This document shows, one piece after another, positions 1,874 through 47,221 of a stretch of DNA of 64,000 nucleotides (positions are counted from its first letter, which is position 1; the number at the start of each line of letters is the position of its first letter). The position numbers were made by a program, and so were the translations under genes. The notes below the pieces were generated by a model. The model saw nothing but the letters and a program-made list of their open reading frames with translations. It did no database searches and was not told where the DNA came from. Source of the stretch: Streptomyces mirabilis (lineage in GTDB: Bacteria; Actinomycetota; Actinomycetes; Streptomycetales; Streptomycetaceae); contig NZ_JBCJKP010000001.1 in NCBI RefSeq assembly GCF_039503195.1, forward strand, positions 3,162,001-3,226,000, written 5' to 3'.

Positions 1874-2832
<959 letters not shown>

Positions 2833-3748: not shown

Positions 3749-4120
3749 TCAGACGGCGAGCGCCTGGGCGCGGCGCTTCACCTCCGTGCCGCGATTCTCG
3801 CTCAGAGCCTGCGCGGGGGTGCCGGGCAGGCTCGGGTCGGGGGTGAAGAGCCACTCGAGCATCTCTTCGTCGGAGAAGCCGTCGTCCCGCAGGAGCGTCA
3901 AGGTGCCGGTCAGGCCCTTGACGACCTTCTGCTCGTTCCCGTCGATGAAGGCGGCGGGGACGTGCAGCGCGCGGTTCTCACCACGGCGTACGGCGATCAG
4001 CTGGCCCTCCTTGACCAACTGCCGGACGCGGGTCACCTCGACGCCGAGCTGTTCGGCGATGTCGGGGAGGGTGAGCCAGGCGGGGACGAGAGCATCGATC
4101 TTTGCGTCAATCTCGGTCAC
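3749..4120 (-). CDS. Rv2175c-family winged-helix DNA-binding protein
   Basis: 123 residues from a GTG start. The N-terminal helix-turn-helix (about residues 15-40, LTLPDIAEQLGVEVTRVRQL) is followed by KEGQLIAVRRGENRALHVP, then KVVKGLTGTLTLLRDDGFSDE and WLFTPDPSLPGTP, ending EVKRRAQALAV. The blocks VVKGL/SLPG-LTLL, EWLFTPDPSL and RRAQA-A match M. tuberculosis Rv2175c as I recall it; that protein is a DNA-binding substrate of kinase PknL. A Ser/Thr kinase gene lies 4.3 kb away here (8413-10401), so a kinase-regulator relationship is plausible but not shown. Thr2 is the only N-terminal Thr comparable to the mycobacterial phosphosite region. Confidence 0.85.
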   Translation of the reverse strand: MTEIDAKIDALVPAWLTLPDIAEQLGVEVTRVRQLVKEGQLIAVRRGENRALHVPAAFIDGNEQKVVKGLTGTLTLLRDDGFSDEEMLEWLFTPDPSLPGTPAQALSENRGTEVKRRAQALAV

Positions 4121-5823: not shown

Positions 5824-5885
5824 GGACGGAGGCTCCCTTACTGAGACATACGGCAGCGGGCTAGGGTGGCCAACGTAAAGCACTC

Positions 5886-5974
5886 GCGGGAGCCCGGACG
5901 CACCGGGCTGAGAGGGAGGCTGGCGGCCTCCGACCGTACGAACCTGATCCGGGTCATGCCGGCGAAGGGAGGGG
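5886..5974 (+). promoter_or_regulatory. TPP riboswitch (THI element)
   Basis: The hallmark blocks are present in order: GGGAGCCC...CACCGGG, CTGAGA at 5908-5913, a variable GC-rich stem (5914-5932), then ACCTGATCCGGGTCATGCC (5942-5960) and GGCGAAGGGA (5961-5970). The thiO ATG is at 5985. The only ribosome-binding sequence, GGGAGGGG, is fused to the 3' end of the aptamer. TPP binding should therefore hide it and block translation of thiO-thiS-thiG. Confidence 0.95.
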
Positions 5975-5984
5975 CTGGACGCCC

Positions 5985-7190
5985 ATGTCGCCTACGCGTA
6001 CACCTGCACGTTCCTCGGATGCGCCGTCATCGGACGCACGTGTGTCAGACGTCCTCGTCATCGGGGGCGGGATCATCGGTCTCGTGACCGCCTGGCGGGC
6101 CGCGCAGCGCGGGTTCACCGTCGCGGTCGTGGACCCCGAGCCGGGCGGCGGGGCGGCACGGGTGGCCGCCGGAATGCTCGCCGCCGTCACCGAGCTGCAC
6201 TACGGCGAGCAGACCCTGCTGGGCCTGAACCTCGCCTCCGCACGCCGCTATCCCGACTTCGCCGCCGAACTCACCGAGGCCAGCGGCCAGGACCTCGGCT
6301 ACCGCCGGTGCGGCACGCTGGCCGTCGCCATGGATGCCGACGACCGGGCCCACCTGCGCGAACTGCACGCCTTGCAACACCGCTCGGGGCTCGAATCGGA
6401 GTGGCTCAGCGGCCGGGAGTGCCGCCGTCTGGAGCCCATGCTCGCGCCGGGCGTGCGCGGCGGGCTGCGGGTCGACGGCGACCACCAGATCGACCCGCGC
6501 CGGCTCGCGAAGGCCCTGGTCACGGCGTGCGAGCGGGCCGGAGTGGAGTTCCACCGGACGTGGGCGGAGCGCCTGACCGTCGTACGGGACCGGGCCGCCG
6601 GGGTCCTCACGACGGGCGGCGAACAGCTGGGGGCGGGGCAGGTGGTGCTCGCCGCCGGGAGCCTCAGCGGAAAGCTCCCGGGCGTGCCCGCCGACGTACT
6701 GCCGCCCGTACGGCCCGTGAAGGGTCAGGTGCTGCGGCTGACCGTGCCGAAGCGTTACGCGCCGTTCCTGAGCCGGACCGTGCGGGCCGTGGTGCGCGGC
6801 AGCCAGGTCTATCTGGTGCCGCGGGAGAACGGTGAGCTCGTCGTGGGCGCCACCAGCGAGGAGCTGGGCTGGGACACGACGGTGACCGCGGGCGGGGTCT
6901 ACGAGCTGCTGCGCGACGCCCACGAGCTGGTGCCCGGGATCACCGAGCTGCCGCTCACCGAGACGCGCGCGGGCCTGCGCCCGGGTTCGCCCGACAACGC
7001 GCCGCTGCTCGGCCCGACCGCGCTCGACGGGCTGCTGGTGGCCACCGGGCACTACCGCAACGGCGTCCTGCTCACGCCCGTCACCGGGGACGCCATGGCG
7101 CACGTCCTGACCACCGGCGAGCTCCCGGAAGAGGCCCGCCCCTTCGCCCCCGGCCGCTTCAGCACCGCACTCACGGAGCAGACCGTATGA
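5985..7190 (+). CDS. thiO: Glycine oxidase ThiO
   Basis: 401 residues. This FAD enzyme oxidises glycine to the dehydroglycine used by ThiG to build the thiazole ring. The FAD Rossmann motif VLVIGGGIIGLVTAWRA lies near residues 22-38. The DAO-family core follows, with AAGMLAAVTE, CERAGVEFHRTWAE and a C-terminal ETRAGLRPGSPDNAPLLGP...GHYRNGVLLTP block that closes the flavin site. The ATG is the first after the TPP riboswitch. It overlaps thiS by 4 nt (ATGA), so translation is probably coupled. Confidence 0.95.
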   Translation: MSPTRTPARSSDAPSSDARVSDVLVIGGGIIGLVTAWRAAQRGFTVAVVDPEPGGGAARVAAGMLAAVTELHYGEQTLLGLNLASARRYPDFAAELTEASGQDLGYRRCGTLAVAMDADDRAHLRELHALQHRSGLESEWLSGRECRRLEPMLAPGVRGGLRVDGDHQIDPRRLAKALVTACERAGVEFHRTWAERLTVVRDRAAGVLTTGGEQLGAGQVVLAAGSLSGKLPGVPADVLPPVRPVKGQVLRLTVPKRYAPFLSRTVRAVVRGSQVYLVPRENGELVVGATSEELGWDTTVTAGGVYELLRDAHELVPGITELPLTETRAGLRPGSPDNAPLLGPTALDGLLVATGHYRNGVLLTPVTGDAMAHVLTTGELPEEARPFAPGRFSTALTEQTV

Positions 7191-43148: not shown

Positions 43149-43880
43149 ATGATCAGCACCTGGGGTACGGCGGTCGGCAGGACGATGCGCGGTCAGTCCG
43201 CGCCGGTGACGTACGGGCTGATCTTCCTGTGCTGCCTGATCTTCCTGATCGGTCCCGCCTCGGGACTCAATCCGTCGTTCGGCAGCGGGGACGCGCTGGT
43301 GGTCGCCCAGCGGGCCTACTTCCGGCGCTGGGGCGTGATCCCCGCCGAGCTCTTCGACGGGACCCCGAGCGCCTGGCTCACCCCGGCCACGGCCCTGTTC
43401 ATCCATGGCAGCTGGCTCCACCTCCTGGGCAACATGCTCTTCTTCTACGTCTTCGGAGCGATGACCGAGGAACGCATGGGCCACATCCAGTTCGCCGTCT
43501 TCTACGTGGTCTGCGGCTACCTCGCTCTGCTGGGTTACGCGATCGCCAATTCCGGCTCCGAGCAGTCCCTGGTCGGCGCCTCGGGGGCGATCTCCGCGGT
43601 CCTCGGAGCGTTCCTGTACCTGTTCCCCAGGGCCCGGGTGACCAGTCTCTTCCCGTTCCTCTTCTTCCTGCCGCTGCGCTTCCCCGCCTGGGTCGTGCTG
43701 CCCTTCTGGGTGACCCTGCAATGGCTGGCGGCGGGCCGCAGCCCCTCGGGCCCCGGGGTCGCCTATCTGGCCCACCTGGTGGGCTTCTCGCTGGGGTTCG
43801 TCTACGCGTGGGTGCGGTTCGGGCGGCCGACTAGAGTGAAAACCCCAGCAGCAGCCCCCGAGGGAGAAAACCAGCCGTGA
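43149..43880 (+). CDS. Rhomboid-family intramembrane serine protease
   Basis: About 243 residues from the ATG at 43149 (MISTWGTAVGRTMRGQ); an ATG at 43137 is an alternative and neither has a strong ribosome-binding site. Six to seven membrane helices. The rhomboid features are HGSWLHLLGNMLFFYVFG (the conserved His and Asn of helix 2), nucleophile Ser145 in LVGASGAISAV and His209 in GVAYLAHLVGF. It cleaves within membrane helices of unknown substrates. It overlaps the AsnC-type gene by 4 nt (GTGA), indicating coupled translation. Confidence 0.9.
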   Translation: MISTWGTAVGRTMRGQSAPVTYGLIFLCCLIFLIGPASGLNPSFGSGDALVVAQRAYFRRWGVIPAELFDGTPSAWLTPATALFIHGSWLHLLGNMLFFYVFGAMTEERMGHIQFAVFYVVCGYLALLGYAIANSGSEQSLVGASGAISAVLGAFLYLFPRARVTSLFPFLFFLPLRFPAWVVLPFWVTLQWLAAGRSPSGPGVAYLAHLVGFSLGFVYAWVRFGRPTRVKTPAAAPEGENQP

Positions 43881-44158
43881 TCACCGCGATCGTGCTCATC
43901 AAGACCAGCGTGGACCGGATCCCCGAGATCGCCGAGTCGATCGCCGCGCTGGACAGTGTCAGCGAGGTCTTCTCCGTCACCGGTACGTACGACCTGATCG
44001 CCATGGTCCGGGTGAAGGCCCACGACGACCTGGCGGACGTCATCCCCGGCAAGATCAGCAAGATCCCCGGCGTCGAGGGGACGGACACCCACGTCGCGTT
44101 CCGCACGTACTCCCAGCACGACCTGGAGGCGGCGTTCGCCATCGGCCTCGACAGCTAG
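43877..44158 (+). CDS. Lrp/AsnC-type ligand-binding (RAM) domain protein without DNA-binding domain
   Basis: 93 residues from a GTG overlapping the rhomboid stop. MITAIVLIKTSVDRIPEIAE followed by SIAALDSVSEVFSVTGTYDL and a second alpha-beta half is the RAM/AsnC ligand domain. The helix-turn-helix is absent, so it is a stand-alone effector-binding or oligomerising module, as seen in other actinobacteria. The ligand is likely an amino acid, by family. It may modulate a full-length Lrp regulator elsewhere. A strong bidirectional hairpin follows. Confidence 0.9.
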   Translation: MITAIVLIKTSVDRIPEIAESIAALDSVSEVFSVTGTYDLIAMVRVKAHDDLADVIPGKISKIPGVEGTDTHVAFRTYSQHDLEAAFAIGLDS

Positions 44159-44221: not shown

Positions 44222-45583
44222 TCAGACCGCCGGGACGCAGCGGCCGTCCTCCGTGCGGTAGTTCCACTTCGCCCCGTCCCGCACCAGTTCCTTCACCGCG
44301 CGCACGAACCGCTCCACATGCTCGTCGGGCGTACCGGCCCCGAAGCTGACGCGGATCGCGTTGAGGGACTTCTCCCCGGGCGCCGCCTCGGGCGCCCCGC
44401 ACTCCCCCTGCGTCTGCGGATCGCTGCCGAGCAGCGTCCGCACCAGCGGGTGCGCGCAGAAGAGACCGTCCCGCACCCCGATCCCGTATTCGGCGGACAG
44501 CGCAGCCGCGAAGTGCGAGCTGTTCCAGCCCTCGACGACGAACGAGATGACGCCGACGCGCGGGGCGTCGTCGCCGAAGAGCGACAGGACGCGGACCTCG
44601 GGCACCTCGGCCAGACCGGCGCGGACGGCCCCGATCAGCTGCTCCTCGCGGGCGACGAGCGTGTCGAAACCGGCCTCGGTCAGCGCCTTGCAGGCGGAGG
44701 CGATGGAGTAGGCGCCGATCACGTTCGGCGAACCGGCCTCGTGCCGGGCCGCGCTCTCGTGCCACTCCACGTCCACGCCGCCGTCCACCCGCCGCGTGAC
44801 CTTGCGGCTGGCGCCGCCGCCCGCGAGATACGGCTCGGCCTCGCGCAGCCAGTCGGCGCGGCCCGCGAGCACGCCGGAACCGAACGGCGCGTACAGCTTG
44901 TGCCCGGAGAAGGCGACCCAGTCGACGTCGAGGTCCCGCACGGACACCGGGTGGTGCGGGGCGAGCTGGGCGGCGTCCAGGACGATCCGGGCACCGTGCG
45001 CGTGCGCGGCGGCGGCCAGCTCGCGCACCGGCCACAGCTCGCCGGTGACGTTCGAGGCCCCGGTGACGCAGACGAGGGCCGGGCCGTGGGGGTCGCGGGC
45101 GGCGAGGGCCCGCTCCAGAGCCGTGACGGCCTCCTGCGGGGTGCGGGGCGCGTCGAGGTAGGTGACCTGGGCGTCCTTCCACGGCAGCAGCGAGGCGTGG
45201 TGTTCCGTCTCGAAGACGAACACCTGGCAGCCGGCCGGGAGGGTGGCGGCGAGCAGGTTGAGGGAGTCGGTCGTGGAGCGGGTGAAGACGACCTGGTCGT
45301 CGCCCCGGCAGTCGAGGAATTCCGCGACGGTCCTGCGGGCGTTCTCGAAGAGGTCGGTGGACAGCTGGGAGAGGTACCCGGCGCCGCGGTGCACGCTGCC
45401 GTAGTACGGGGCGTACGCGGCGACGTCGTCCCACACCCGCTGGAGGGCGGGGGCGCTGGCGGCGTAGTCGAGCGCGGCGTAGGTGACCTCACCGCCGGTC
45501 ACGAGCGGGACGGTGACATCTCGCCCCAGAACGGGCAGAGGGGCACAAACGGCCTGGTCGGCGGCAGTGGTGGAGACAGACAT
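44222..45583 (-). CDS. SufS-like class V aminotransferase/cysteine desulfurase, SAM-IV controlled
   Basis: 453 residues from the ATG at 45583, behind AGGAG. PLP fold I: LDYAASAPALQ, TRSTTDSLNLLA, ETEHHASLLPW, IVLDAAQLAPHHP, and the Schiff-base Lys in VAFSGHKLYAPFGSG. VRDGLFCAHP near residue 380 matches the SufS-type RxGxxCxxP loop, so the persulfide-carrying Cys is present. An extended segment (GSDPQTQGECGAPEA) near the C-terminus is unlike SufS. A SAM-IV riboswitch lies 193 nt upstream, which ties the enzyme to methionine/cysteine metabolism rather than routine Fe-S assembly. The exact substrate is open. Confidence 0.85.
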   Translation of the reverse strand: MSVSTTAADQAVCAPLPVLGRDVTVPLVTGGEVTYAALDYAASAPALQRVWDDVAAYAPYYGSVHRGAGYLSQLSTDLFENARRTVAEFLDCRGDDQVVFTRSTTDSLNLLAATLPAGCQVFVFETEHHASLLPWKDAQVTYLDAPRTPQEAVTALERALAARDPHGPALVCVTGASNVTGELWPVRELAAAAHAHGARIVLDAAQLAPHHPVSVRDLDVDWVAFSGHKLYAPFGSGVLAGRADWLREAEPYLAGGGASRKVTRRVDGGVDVEWHESAARHEAGSPNVIGAYSIASACKALTEAGFDTLVAREEQLIGAVRAGLAEVPEVRVLSLFGDDAPRVGVISFVVEGWNSSHFAAALSAEYGIGVRDGLFCAHPLVRTLLGSDPQTQGECGAPEAAPGEKSLNAIRVSFGAGTPDEHVERFVRAVKELVRDGAKWNYRTEDGRCVPAV

Positions 45584-45740
45584 GGCGAGCTCCTGTGAGA
45601 GGCAGGCGGAATCGCTGCGCGGGCCGGGTGCACGGGGGTACGGGTGTGCGGCTGCACGGCTCGGCGCAGGGAGGAAAGGCAAAAGGGTGTGCGGAGGCGG
45701 GGCTCTACGCCCTATCGCATTCGCTTGCTCACAGAAGGCT

Positions 45741-45776
45741 CCCTCGAACGACCAGGACCCCTGGGATTCTCGAGGG
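45741..45776 (-). terminator. Expression-platform hairpin next to the SAM-IV aptamer
   Basis: CCCTCGA and TCGAGGG form an outer 7-bp stem, with an inner CAGG/CCTG pair. It begins at the 3' edge of the riboswitch, so folding of the two may compete. No U-run follows. Confidence 0.5.
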
Positions 45777-45892
45777 GTCCGCGCTTGCCGCAGACCTCGC
45801 TGCCTGCGGCCTGGTCTTCACCCGGGGCACCCCGCCACGGACGGAGGGTTGCCGGACAGCCGGCCGGGGCCTGATGGCTGTCGCTCATGACC
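45776..45892 (-). promoter_or_regulatory. SAM-IV riboswitch
   Basis: Minus-strand landmarks occur in order: GGTCATGAGCGACAGCC, then CCCCGGCCGGCTGTCCGGCA and ACCCTCC, then GGGGTGCCCCGGGTGAAGACC, and a final GCGGCAAGCGCGGACC. The GTCATGAG, CCGGCAACCCTCC, GTGCCCCGGGTGA and GGCAAGCGCGG blocks match the known actinobacterial SAM-IV aptamer closely, including the downstream pseudoknot stem that separates SAM-IV from SAM-I. The first gene downstream on this strand is the SufS-like enzyme. Confidence 0.92.
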
Positions 45893-45928
45893 TGATACGG
45901 CATCCTGCCACAAGATCTTCCACCCGCA

Positions 45929-45958
45929 ACCCGGCGTCCGCATACCGGGACGCCGGGT
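45929..45958 (-). terminator. Hairpin between trpD and the SAM-IV leader
   Basis: ACCCGGCGTCC and GGACGCCGGGT form a perfect 11-bp stem with an 8-nt loop, 117 bp past the trpD stop and 37 nt upstream of the riboswitch. It probably ends trpD transcription; no clear U-run follows. Confidence 0.6.
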
Positions 45959-46011
45959 GAGAGGCAGCGCCACTACCTGGGGACTCCGCACCCAGACCCC
46001 CAAAAGATCGC

Positions 46012-46066
46012 CCCGCCCCGGGGGCGCGGGGAACGGCGCGGGCAACCCCCACCGGTCCGCAGACGA
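46012..46066. repeat. Dispersed Streptomyces intergenic repeat, copy C
   Basis: CCCCGCCCCGGGGGCGCGGG followed by GAACGGCGCGGGCAACCCCC and ACCGGTCCGCAGACG. Same family and orientation as copy B. It lies just downstream of trpD. Confidence 0.65.
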
Positions 46067-46075
46067 ACAACCAGG

Positions 46076-47140
46076 CTACGACTGGCTCGCAGCCACCCAG
46101 CGTTCCAGCGTCCGCTTCGCCGCCCCCGAGTCGATCGCCTCCGCCGCCTTCGCCATCCCGGCGCGGAGCTGGTCCGCGAGCGGTGCGTCGGTCGGGGACA
46201 GGGCGACGAGGGCCGCCGCGGAGTTCAGCAGCACGGCGTCCCGTACGGGCCCCGTCTCACCGTTGAGCAGGCGACGGGCGACGTCCGCGTTGTAGGACGC
46301 GTCGGCGCCGCGCAGGGCCTCCACGGGGACGAGTTCGAGGCCGACGTCACGCGGGTCGAACCGCTCCTCGGTGACCTTGCCGTCGCGGACGATCCAGACC
46401 CGGGACGTCGCGGTGGTGGTCAGCTCGTCCAGGCCGTCGTCGCCGCGGAAGACGAGCGAGGAGTTGCCGCGCTCGGCGAACACGCCCGCCACGATCGGTG
46501 CCATGCGCAGGTCCGCGACTCCGACGGCCTGTGCCCTCACCCGCGCCGGGTTCGTCAGCGGACCCAGCACGTTGAACGTGGTCCGGATCCCCAACTGCCC
46601 CCGCGCCGCCGCGACATGACGCAGCGCCGGGTGGAACTTCACCGCGAAGCAGAAGGTGATCCCGGCCTCCTCCGCGACCTCGGCCACCCGCTTCGTCGTC
46701 AGGTCCAGATTGACGCCGAGCTTCTCGAGGACGTCCGAGGCGCCGGACGCGGAGGACGCGGCCCGGTTGCCGTGCTTGACGACCTTGGCGCCGGTCCCGG
46801 CGACGACGATCGACGACATCGTGGAGATGTTCACCGTCTTCGCGCCGTCACCGCCCGTACCGACGATGTCGACGGTGTCCCCCGGCACCTCGATCACATT
46901 GGCGTGTTCGTACATCGTCCGGACGAGACCGGAGATCTCCTCGACCGTCTCGCCCTTGGCCCGCAGCGCCACCGCGAACCCGGCGATCTGCGCGTCCGTC
47001 GCCTCGCCGCTCATGATCCGGTCCATCGCCCAGGCCGTGTCGTCCGCGCTCTGGTCGCGGCCCTCGAGCAGGCCGTTCAGCACCACGGGCCAGGAACGGC
47101 CCGCCGCGGTGTTGCCTCCAGCGGGGTTCACAGCGCTCAT
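46076..47140 (-). CDS. trpD: Anthranilate phosphoribosyltransferase
   Basis: 354 residues from the ATG at 47140, behind AGGAGCGG; the longer frame to 47221 has no site. It adds phosphoribose from PRPP to anthranilate, the step after TrpE-TrpG. The PRPP loop [19 protein letters not shown] is complete, and [20 protein letters not shown] and [10 protein letters not shown] are the anthranilate-side and hinge motifs. No leader peptide or attenuator was seen upstream. It is separate from trpEG and from any other trp gene in the window, next to the bc1 genes as in M. tuberculosis. Confidence 0.95.
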
Positions 47141-47221
47141 AAGCCGCTCCTGGGTCCGTCGTCCCGGCAGAGGGACGCCTCGTGTAGATGGGAACACCCT
47201 ATCCAGGCCCGGAGACGGCAA

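Follow-up and report, generated by a model that had tools for sequence, protein, structure and literature searches.

The window analyzed here is a 64,000-nt stretch of the Streptomyces mirabilis genome (11.1 Mb on two contigs; NZ_JBCJKP010000001.1, positions 3,162,001 to 3,226,000). On its minus strand, a SAM-IV riboswitch aptamer (RF00634, 45776-45892) precedes the gene of a cysteine-desulfurase-like class V PLP enzyme of 453 aa (44222-45583). In cmscan, the aptamer scores 110.3 bits (gathering score 38; E 1.8e-19) over model positions 1-116, the full length of the model, with non-standard pairing flagged at two positions of the P5 hairpin. The first-pass annotation had claimed a strong SAM-IV match and named a covariance score below threshold as one outcome that would refute it; the score lies far above the cut-off and the identity of the element as SAM-IV is certain. 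The RNA is predicted to sense SAM. Complementarity read from the sequence assigns pseudoknot PK-2 to a loop strand GUCCGUG (45836-45842, minus strand) and a 3′ strand CGCGGAC (45777-45783, minus strand), at the 3′ end of the aptamer as reported for the SAM-IV structure determined by cryo-EM (PMC6890682).

The enzyme ATG lies at 45583, 192 nt beyond the aptamer (193 nt had been given before). The gene is flanked upstream by a Glycos_transf_3 (trpD-type) gene at 46076-47221 (minus strand) and on its other side by an Lrp/AsnC ligand-binding gene at 43877-44158 (plus strand). The same genome carries a second SAM-IV element with a score of 74.7 bits (locus L002, 1501-1646, minus strand), and the window itself holds a TPP riboswitch at 5876-5987 (plus strand; 64.9 bits, gathering score 54.3).

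The enzyme is desulfurase-like but distinct from housekeeping SufS

The enzyme matches Pfam PF00266 with 252.1 bits, which assigns it to the class V aminotransferase fold, and the solved proteins closest to it in sequence carry the name cysteine desulfurase or aminotransferase. Its Cys loop reads R371-D-G-L-F-C376-A-H-P, of the R-x-G-x-x-C type, and the earlier description as a class V PLP enzyme with a SufS-type Cys loop is borne out. Among the matches listed, the closest named locus is that of Streptomyces diastatochromogenes ATCC 12309 with 99% protein identity.

We aligned 135 members of the enzyme family, comprising that of the window, 79 out of 80 loci from the enzyme search (L033 was left out) and 55 of 60 further loci; L156, L175, L196, L197 and L199 are absent, having no usable frame. 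All 135 members share Cys376, the PLP lysine Lys229, His128, Asp203, Gln206 and Arg411; we take these to correspond to catalytic residues of known SufS. Phe375 and His378, which flank the cysteine, are invariant as well, and the genome's own SufS, whose N-terminal part is poorly aligned, has His and Arg in their place (G-H-H-C-A-R compared with G-x-F-C-A-H in the enzyme).

While the two proteins belong to the same fold family, the enzyme scores 251.7 bits with the SufS family TIGR01979, below the cut-off of 475.1, and its gene lies behind a SAM-IV riboswitch and apart from sufB, sufC and sufD. The suf cluster is found elsewhere in the genome, where a separate SufS (621.2 bits) sits beside SufC, SufD and SufB. 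Because of the low score and this separate SufS, a housekeeping role in Fe-S assembly is unlikely, as had been surmised from the sequence alone. The enzyme probably acts as a cysteine desulfurase or lyase.

SAM-IV and the enzyme are paired across the class

We compared the locus with 296 genomes of the class. Under the stricter filters, SAM-IV is present in 188 of them, and relatives of the enzyme (E ≤1e-60) occur in 112, of which 27 belong to the same genus and 85 to others. Loci from 60 of these 85 genomes served as the comparison set outside the family. By Rfam, SAM-IV exceeds the cut-off in 52 of the 60 loci (14/14, 15/16, 14/15 and 9/15 in the four batches), and in all 52 it lies upstream of the enzyme on the same strand. 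Rfam gave no SAM-IV in the remaining eight (L163, L187 and L196-L201), of which L200 and L201 are contigs of ~4-5 kb. The association is not due to chance, and with SAM-IV upstream on the enzyme strand in 52 of 60 loci outside the family, it must be of long standing in the class. Approached from the riboswitch, 17 of the 30 best SAM-IV matches in the class have the enzyme within 1.5 kb. Behind the other 13 we scanned ten genes; nine of these score above the cut-off of the bifunctional O-acetylhomoserine/O-acetylserine sulfhydrylase family, and the tenth matches no family.

Gene neighborhood gave little guidance on the substrate: a context was obtained for 56 of the 60 loci, and most of the neighbors are not shared. 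Three loci, L159-L161, have genes of a PAPS_reduct-domain cluster and of a CysN-like GTPase cluster behind the enzyme (domain scans of L160 and L161), presumably CysD and CysN. These neighbors, together with the sulfhydrylase genes behind other SAM-IV elements, fit a role in sulfur supply or sulfur amino-acid metabolism, the latter being where the first-pass annotation had placed the enzyme. An uncharacterized desulfurase-like family thereby joins O-acetylhomoserine sulfhydrylase in the SAM-IV regulon, which hints at the route by which actinomycetes provide the sulfur of methionine.

Two of these loci hold further riboswitches. L162 contains a divergent SAM-IV pair (1956-2073, minus strand; 2175-2291, plus strand), one for the enzyme and the other facing two luciferase-like monooxygenases, one of the MsnO8 family and one NtaA/DmoA-like (below cut-off), an arrangement that is likewise consistent with sulfur supply. 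In L164, a SAM-I element (3793-3882, minus strand) diverges from SAM-IV and faces a 2OG-Fe(II) oxygenase with weak similarity to the WelO5 halogenase.

A conserved six-codon frame lies between riboswitch and enzyme

Comparing leaders side by side, we found a short open reading frame, GTGAGCAAGCGAATGCGATAG, at 45712-45732 (minus strand), behind a Shine-Dalgarno sequence GAGGGAG at 45739-45745 (minus strand). It would encode MSKRMR, starting with GTG and ending with TAG, and its sequence has a single site in its own genome at up to two mismatches. The family used for comparison is that of the source genome, taken as Streptomycetaceae. A strict search pattern for this mini-ORF matched 124 of 297 family genomes (reversed-pattern control: 0) and a looser one 183 of 297 (reversed-pattern control: 1). 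Twenty matches to the looser pattern were read individually, and 19 of these have the aptamer motif; others overlap the leader set described below, and the rest stand by pattern alone. One match, locus L304 in G324, is due to chance: it has no aptamer motif upstream and is the only match in its genus (g118). Its removal lowers the number of supporting genera from 11 to 10 of 17. Genus g127 has no genome matching the mini-ORF pattern, and its leaders L257 and L260 start the enzyme directly behind the riboswitch.

Among 196 family loci, 183 contain the enzyme and 182 of those also the aptamer motif; L256 is without the motif as defined, yet has the mini-ORF. Of these 182 leaders, 170 have the frame M-x-x-R-M-x-stop; as some genomes occur twice, 155 of the 170 are distinct. 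In these 170 leaders, (i) the start codon is GTG in 152, ATG in 12 and TTG in 6; (ii) codons 2 and 3 vary in amino acid; (iii) codon 6 is CGA in 114, CGC in 28, CGT in 20, CGG in 4 and another codon in 4, and thus CGN in 166; and (iv) the stop codon is TAG in all 170, though the pattern allowed TGA and TAA and TAG accounts for 10 of 47 stops in the window. Codon 4 is constantly CGA, though CGA makes up 45 of 1225 CGN codons in the 47 ORFs of the window. The search pattern, which also fixed the first base as A, G or T, in part dictates that CGA and ATG are constant, and the 12 leaders that fail the pattern provide the unbiased measure. None of them fails on account of a different first base. 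Eight have a direct start of the enzyme (L050, L249, L251, L257, L259, L260, L282 and L286), in frame and 43-71 nt after the aptamer motif; in L050 (S. flaveus), the mini-ORF is lost and the enzyme ATG lies behind the same GAGGGAG. The other four have variant small frames, namely MSKRM (L239), MSQHMP (L277), MQMMR (L265) and, doubtfully, L264. AUG is retained in L277 and L265 and forms the last codon in L239.

The variation at the start codon, at codons 2 and 3 and at the last Arg codon is coding-like, and we infer that the mini-ORF is translated. A different reading is that the conserved stretch acts untranslated, as an RNA element that forms the 5′ arm of an attenuator hairpin or binds a protein, in a leader governed by transcription attenuation alone. 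GCGAATG is near-invariant including the third base of CGA, which goes beyond coding constraint and could mean such an element. Likewise, the near-invariant GCGAATGCG folds in the window with the downstream GCCCCGCCUCCGC into one long hairpin, and a premature transcription unit reported for a gene of the same description (PMC8269248; see below) agrees with attenuation. Against this reading, the base before TG alternates between G, A and T, the third base of codon 6 varies, the frame ends in a stop and is preceded by a well-placed Shine-Dalgarno sequence, and the outer 3′ arm CGCCUCCGC is missing from several other genera while the frame persists. We therefore regard an untranslated element as unlikely.

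Two proposed, mutually exclusive helices at the mini-ORF Shine-Dalgarno sequence

Directly after the aptamer, a helix that we call P6 can form between GGACCCC (45774-45780, minus strand) and GGGGUCC (45755-45761, minus strand); we propose it as the ON helix. Its 5′ arm has GGAC in common with the 3′ strand of PK-2 (45783-45777). The strand CCCUCGA (45770-45776, minus strand) is complementary to 45747-45741, which overlaps the mini-ORF Shine-Dalgarno sequence, and this proposed OFF helix excludes P6. A 6-bp P6 is present in 138 of 138 distinct long leaders. Among 123 less redundant leaders, the P6 columns hold letters in 111 and show changes from C-G to U-A, with no broken pair in six columns. 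The Shine-Dalgarno helix varies in sequence; with at least 5 bp and G-U pairs allowed, it is found in 111 of 138 long leaders, compared with 25% when the inserts are shuffled, and is absent by the same rule in the other 27. A folding model paired the Shine-Dalgarno sequence both when folding freely and with the PK-2 strands withheld, and thus gives no ON state by thermodynamics alone.

P6 is missing in 17 distinct short leaders, so that the P6 switch is not universal. In these, the mini-ORF starts 16-20 nt after the conserved CAAGCGCG-type aptamer motif, which puts the 3′ edge of the aptamer at the Shine-Dalgarno sequence, and therefore only the mini-ORF ribosome-binding site is in reach of the riboswitch.

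Outside the family, 47 of 52 loci have an in-frame enzyme start, preceded by a Shine-Dalgarno sequence, at a distance of 15-69 nt from the aptamer (median 37); the other five fall outside the start-calling rule. A frame of the type start-x-x-x-AUG-x-stop occurs in 0 of these 52 loci within the first 150 nt after the riboswitch. The locus in the window differs from these in its interposed mini-ORF, and from this comparison the riboswitch seems to have been re-targeted, in this family, from the enzyme start to the mini-ORF. The claim that SAM-IV controls the enzyme thus holds as far as the riboswitch stands ahead of the gene. Control looks indirect, because the conserved mini-ORF owns the Shine-Dalgarno sequence of the switching platform and the enzyme starts 128 nt past the mini-ORF stop. 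Direct action on the enzyme's own ribosome-binding site, with the mini-ORF incidental, has precedent outside the family and in 8 of 182 family leaders, but at this distance and with platform helices that involve the mini-ORF Shine-Dalgarno sequence it is very unlikely, and we reject it as the main reading for this species.

The leader downstream of the mini-ORF

Starting at the G of the UAG stop codon, a hairpin GGGC GUAGA GCCC spans 45700-45712 (minus strand). Its arms co-vary between leaders (GGGC/GCCC, GAGG/CCTC, GGGG/CCCC, GGCG/CGCC and GGCC/GGCC, with wobble forms). Of 175 sequences, 171 have a stem of at least 4 bp within 30 nt, and the chance match L304 is among the four that do not; within 28 nt, such a stem is found in 152 of 155 leaders, compared with ~82% in shuffles. 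Over a span of 60 nt, shuffles match or beat the observed stems, and the mean z is -1.03 compared with -0.70 in a control window. The excess over shuffles is modest; stem length at the stop codon is weak as standalone evidence, and we retain the hairpin for its co-variation. The stem is much longer in L305 and, by eye, apparently opened by a long insertion in L016.

Between the hairpin and the enzyme lies a C-rich, A-poor stretch (45595-45699, minus strand), whose composition makes it a possible Rho loading region. In 155 distinct leaders, the stretch between mini-ORF and enzyme contains 45% C, 23% G, 23% T and 9% A. A scan of 45500-46150 gave no canonical intrinsic terminator in the leader; terminator-like sites in this interval occur only upstream of the riboswitch, at 46094-46009. 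We also considered whether GCGAAT pairs with an ATTC(N)GC close to the enzyme, but this combination occurs in 28% of 155 leaders (4% in shuffles), and we discarded it as present in too few.

Discussion

We propose, with a probability of about 0.62, that SAM-IV acts at the level of translation to turn off a six-codon mini-ORF (M-x-x-R-M-R-stop), and that translation of this mini-ORF licenses expression of the enzyme. With SAM bound, PK-2 would hold the strand that P6 needs; the freed CCCUCGA would pair with the mini-ORF Shine-Dalgarno sequence and silence the mini-ORF. The untranslated C-rich leader and the stop-codon hairpin would then lead to an early end of transcription, most likely by Rho. 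At low SAM, P6 would form, and ribosomes translating the mini-ORF would open the stop-codon hairpin. Transcription would then continue into the gene of the enzyme, where a separate ribosome-binding site is present. Comparison of leaders supports this proposal through the conservation of the mini-ORF, its coding-like variation, its position, the two exclusive helices and, for loci outside the family, the direct arrangement; that the mini-ORF is translated, in which direction the switch works and that termination follows are inferences.

That SAM-IV precedes such a gene has been published before; new here is the mini-ORF, which has apparently captured the riboswitch. In S. lividans, SAM-IV is reported ahead of SLIV_26975, listed as a cysteine desulfurase of thiamine metabolism (PMC8079986), and in S. 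clavuligerus ahead of CRV15_21540, there with a premature transcription unit (PMC8269248). Both are presumed orthologues of the enzyme by gene description, not by alignment. The mini-ORF is mentioned neither in the passages on these two genes nor in the titles and abstract openings of the listed papers on SAM-IV with Streptomyces, aminotransferase or leader peptide, or on riboswitch uORFs and leader peptides in Streptomyces or Actinobacteria.

Riboswitch-controlled uORFs are known from Mycobacterium tuberculosis, and the arrangement described here differs from them in aptamer, ligand and ORF. The pe20 Mbox is reported to control the uORF rv1805A, with Rho-dependent termination (PMC12810186); it shares with the model proposed here a translational platform on a small upstream ORF and termination in the leader, while here the ORF has six codons with a near-invariant CGA-AUG and the organism is another. 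Its authors place the main termination site upstream of the uORF (PMC12810186). The ppe2 B12 riboswitch, with its translated leader, has a controlled leader ORF that is needed for the downstream gene, as is proposed here, and differs in ligand, ORF and the reported route, which is mainly termination-reinitiation (PMC11260477).

The ppe2 example favors translational coupling or re-initiation, instead of transcription termination, as the link between mini-ORF and enzyme. For re-initiation, however, the distance from mini-ORF stop to enzyme start, 57-291 nt with a median of 101 in 129 measured leaders, is variable and long. The premature transcription unit in S. clavuligerus (PMC8269248) also speaks against coupling, which we consider quite improbable; given this unit, translation of the mini-ORF probably prevents premature termination, a link that we rank first, ahead of re-initiation.

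The near-terminal Met codon invites the idea of methionine sensing. In a two-input gate, SAM would gate ribosome entry at the mini-ORF, and the charging of methionyl-tRNA would set how long the ribosome waits at AUG, one codon before the stop and after the rare codon CGA; a waiting ribosome would cover the 5′ arm of the stop-codon hairpin and keep transcription going. We advance this extension tentatively and hold it to be doubtful. A Xanthomonas SAM-I riboswitch is reported to sense uncharged initiator tRNA as well (PMC7270179), and similarly combines SAM and methionine-tRNA information in one leader; there the RNA itself binds the tRNA, whereas here the ribosome at the AUG codon would be the sensor.

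If the proposed control of the mini-ORF by SAM-IV is correct, it would show that evolution can shift the target of a riboswitch from a gene to a six-codon ORF, assign a testable role to a very short, conserved ORF of bacteria, and suggest a reason for the premature transcript reported for a gene of the same description. Since six-codon frames escape gene annotation, similar devices may be present in the leaders of other riboswitches. The combination of SAM-IV with a leader peptide may be a general design in the family: a leader peptide with a V/I-D-L-x-x-V core lies behind 7 of 59 other SAM-IV loci of the family, a lower bound from one regular expression with no shuffle control, and also behind the second SAM-IV of the source genome (L002, minus strand), where the frame ends in TRRLHIDLQRVSSAY and a stop. 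In five of these seven family loci (L254, L262, L263, L290, L291, L295 and L296), the peptide has a Cys near its end.
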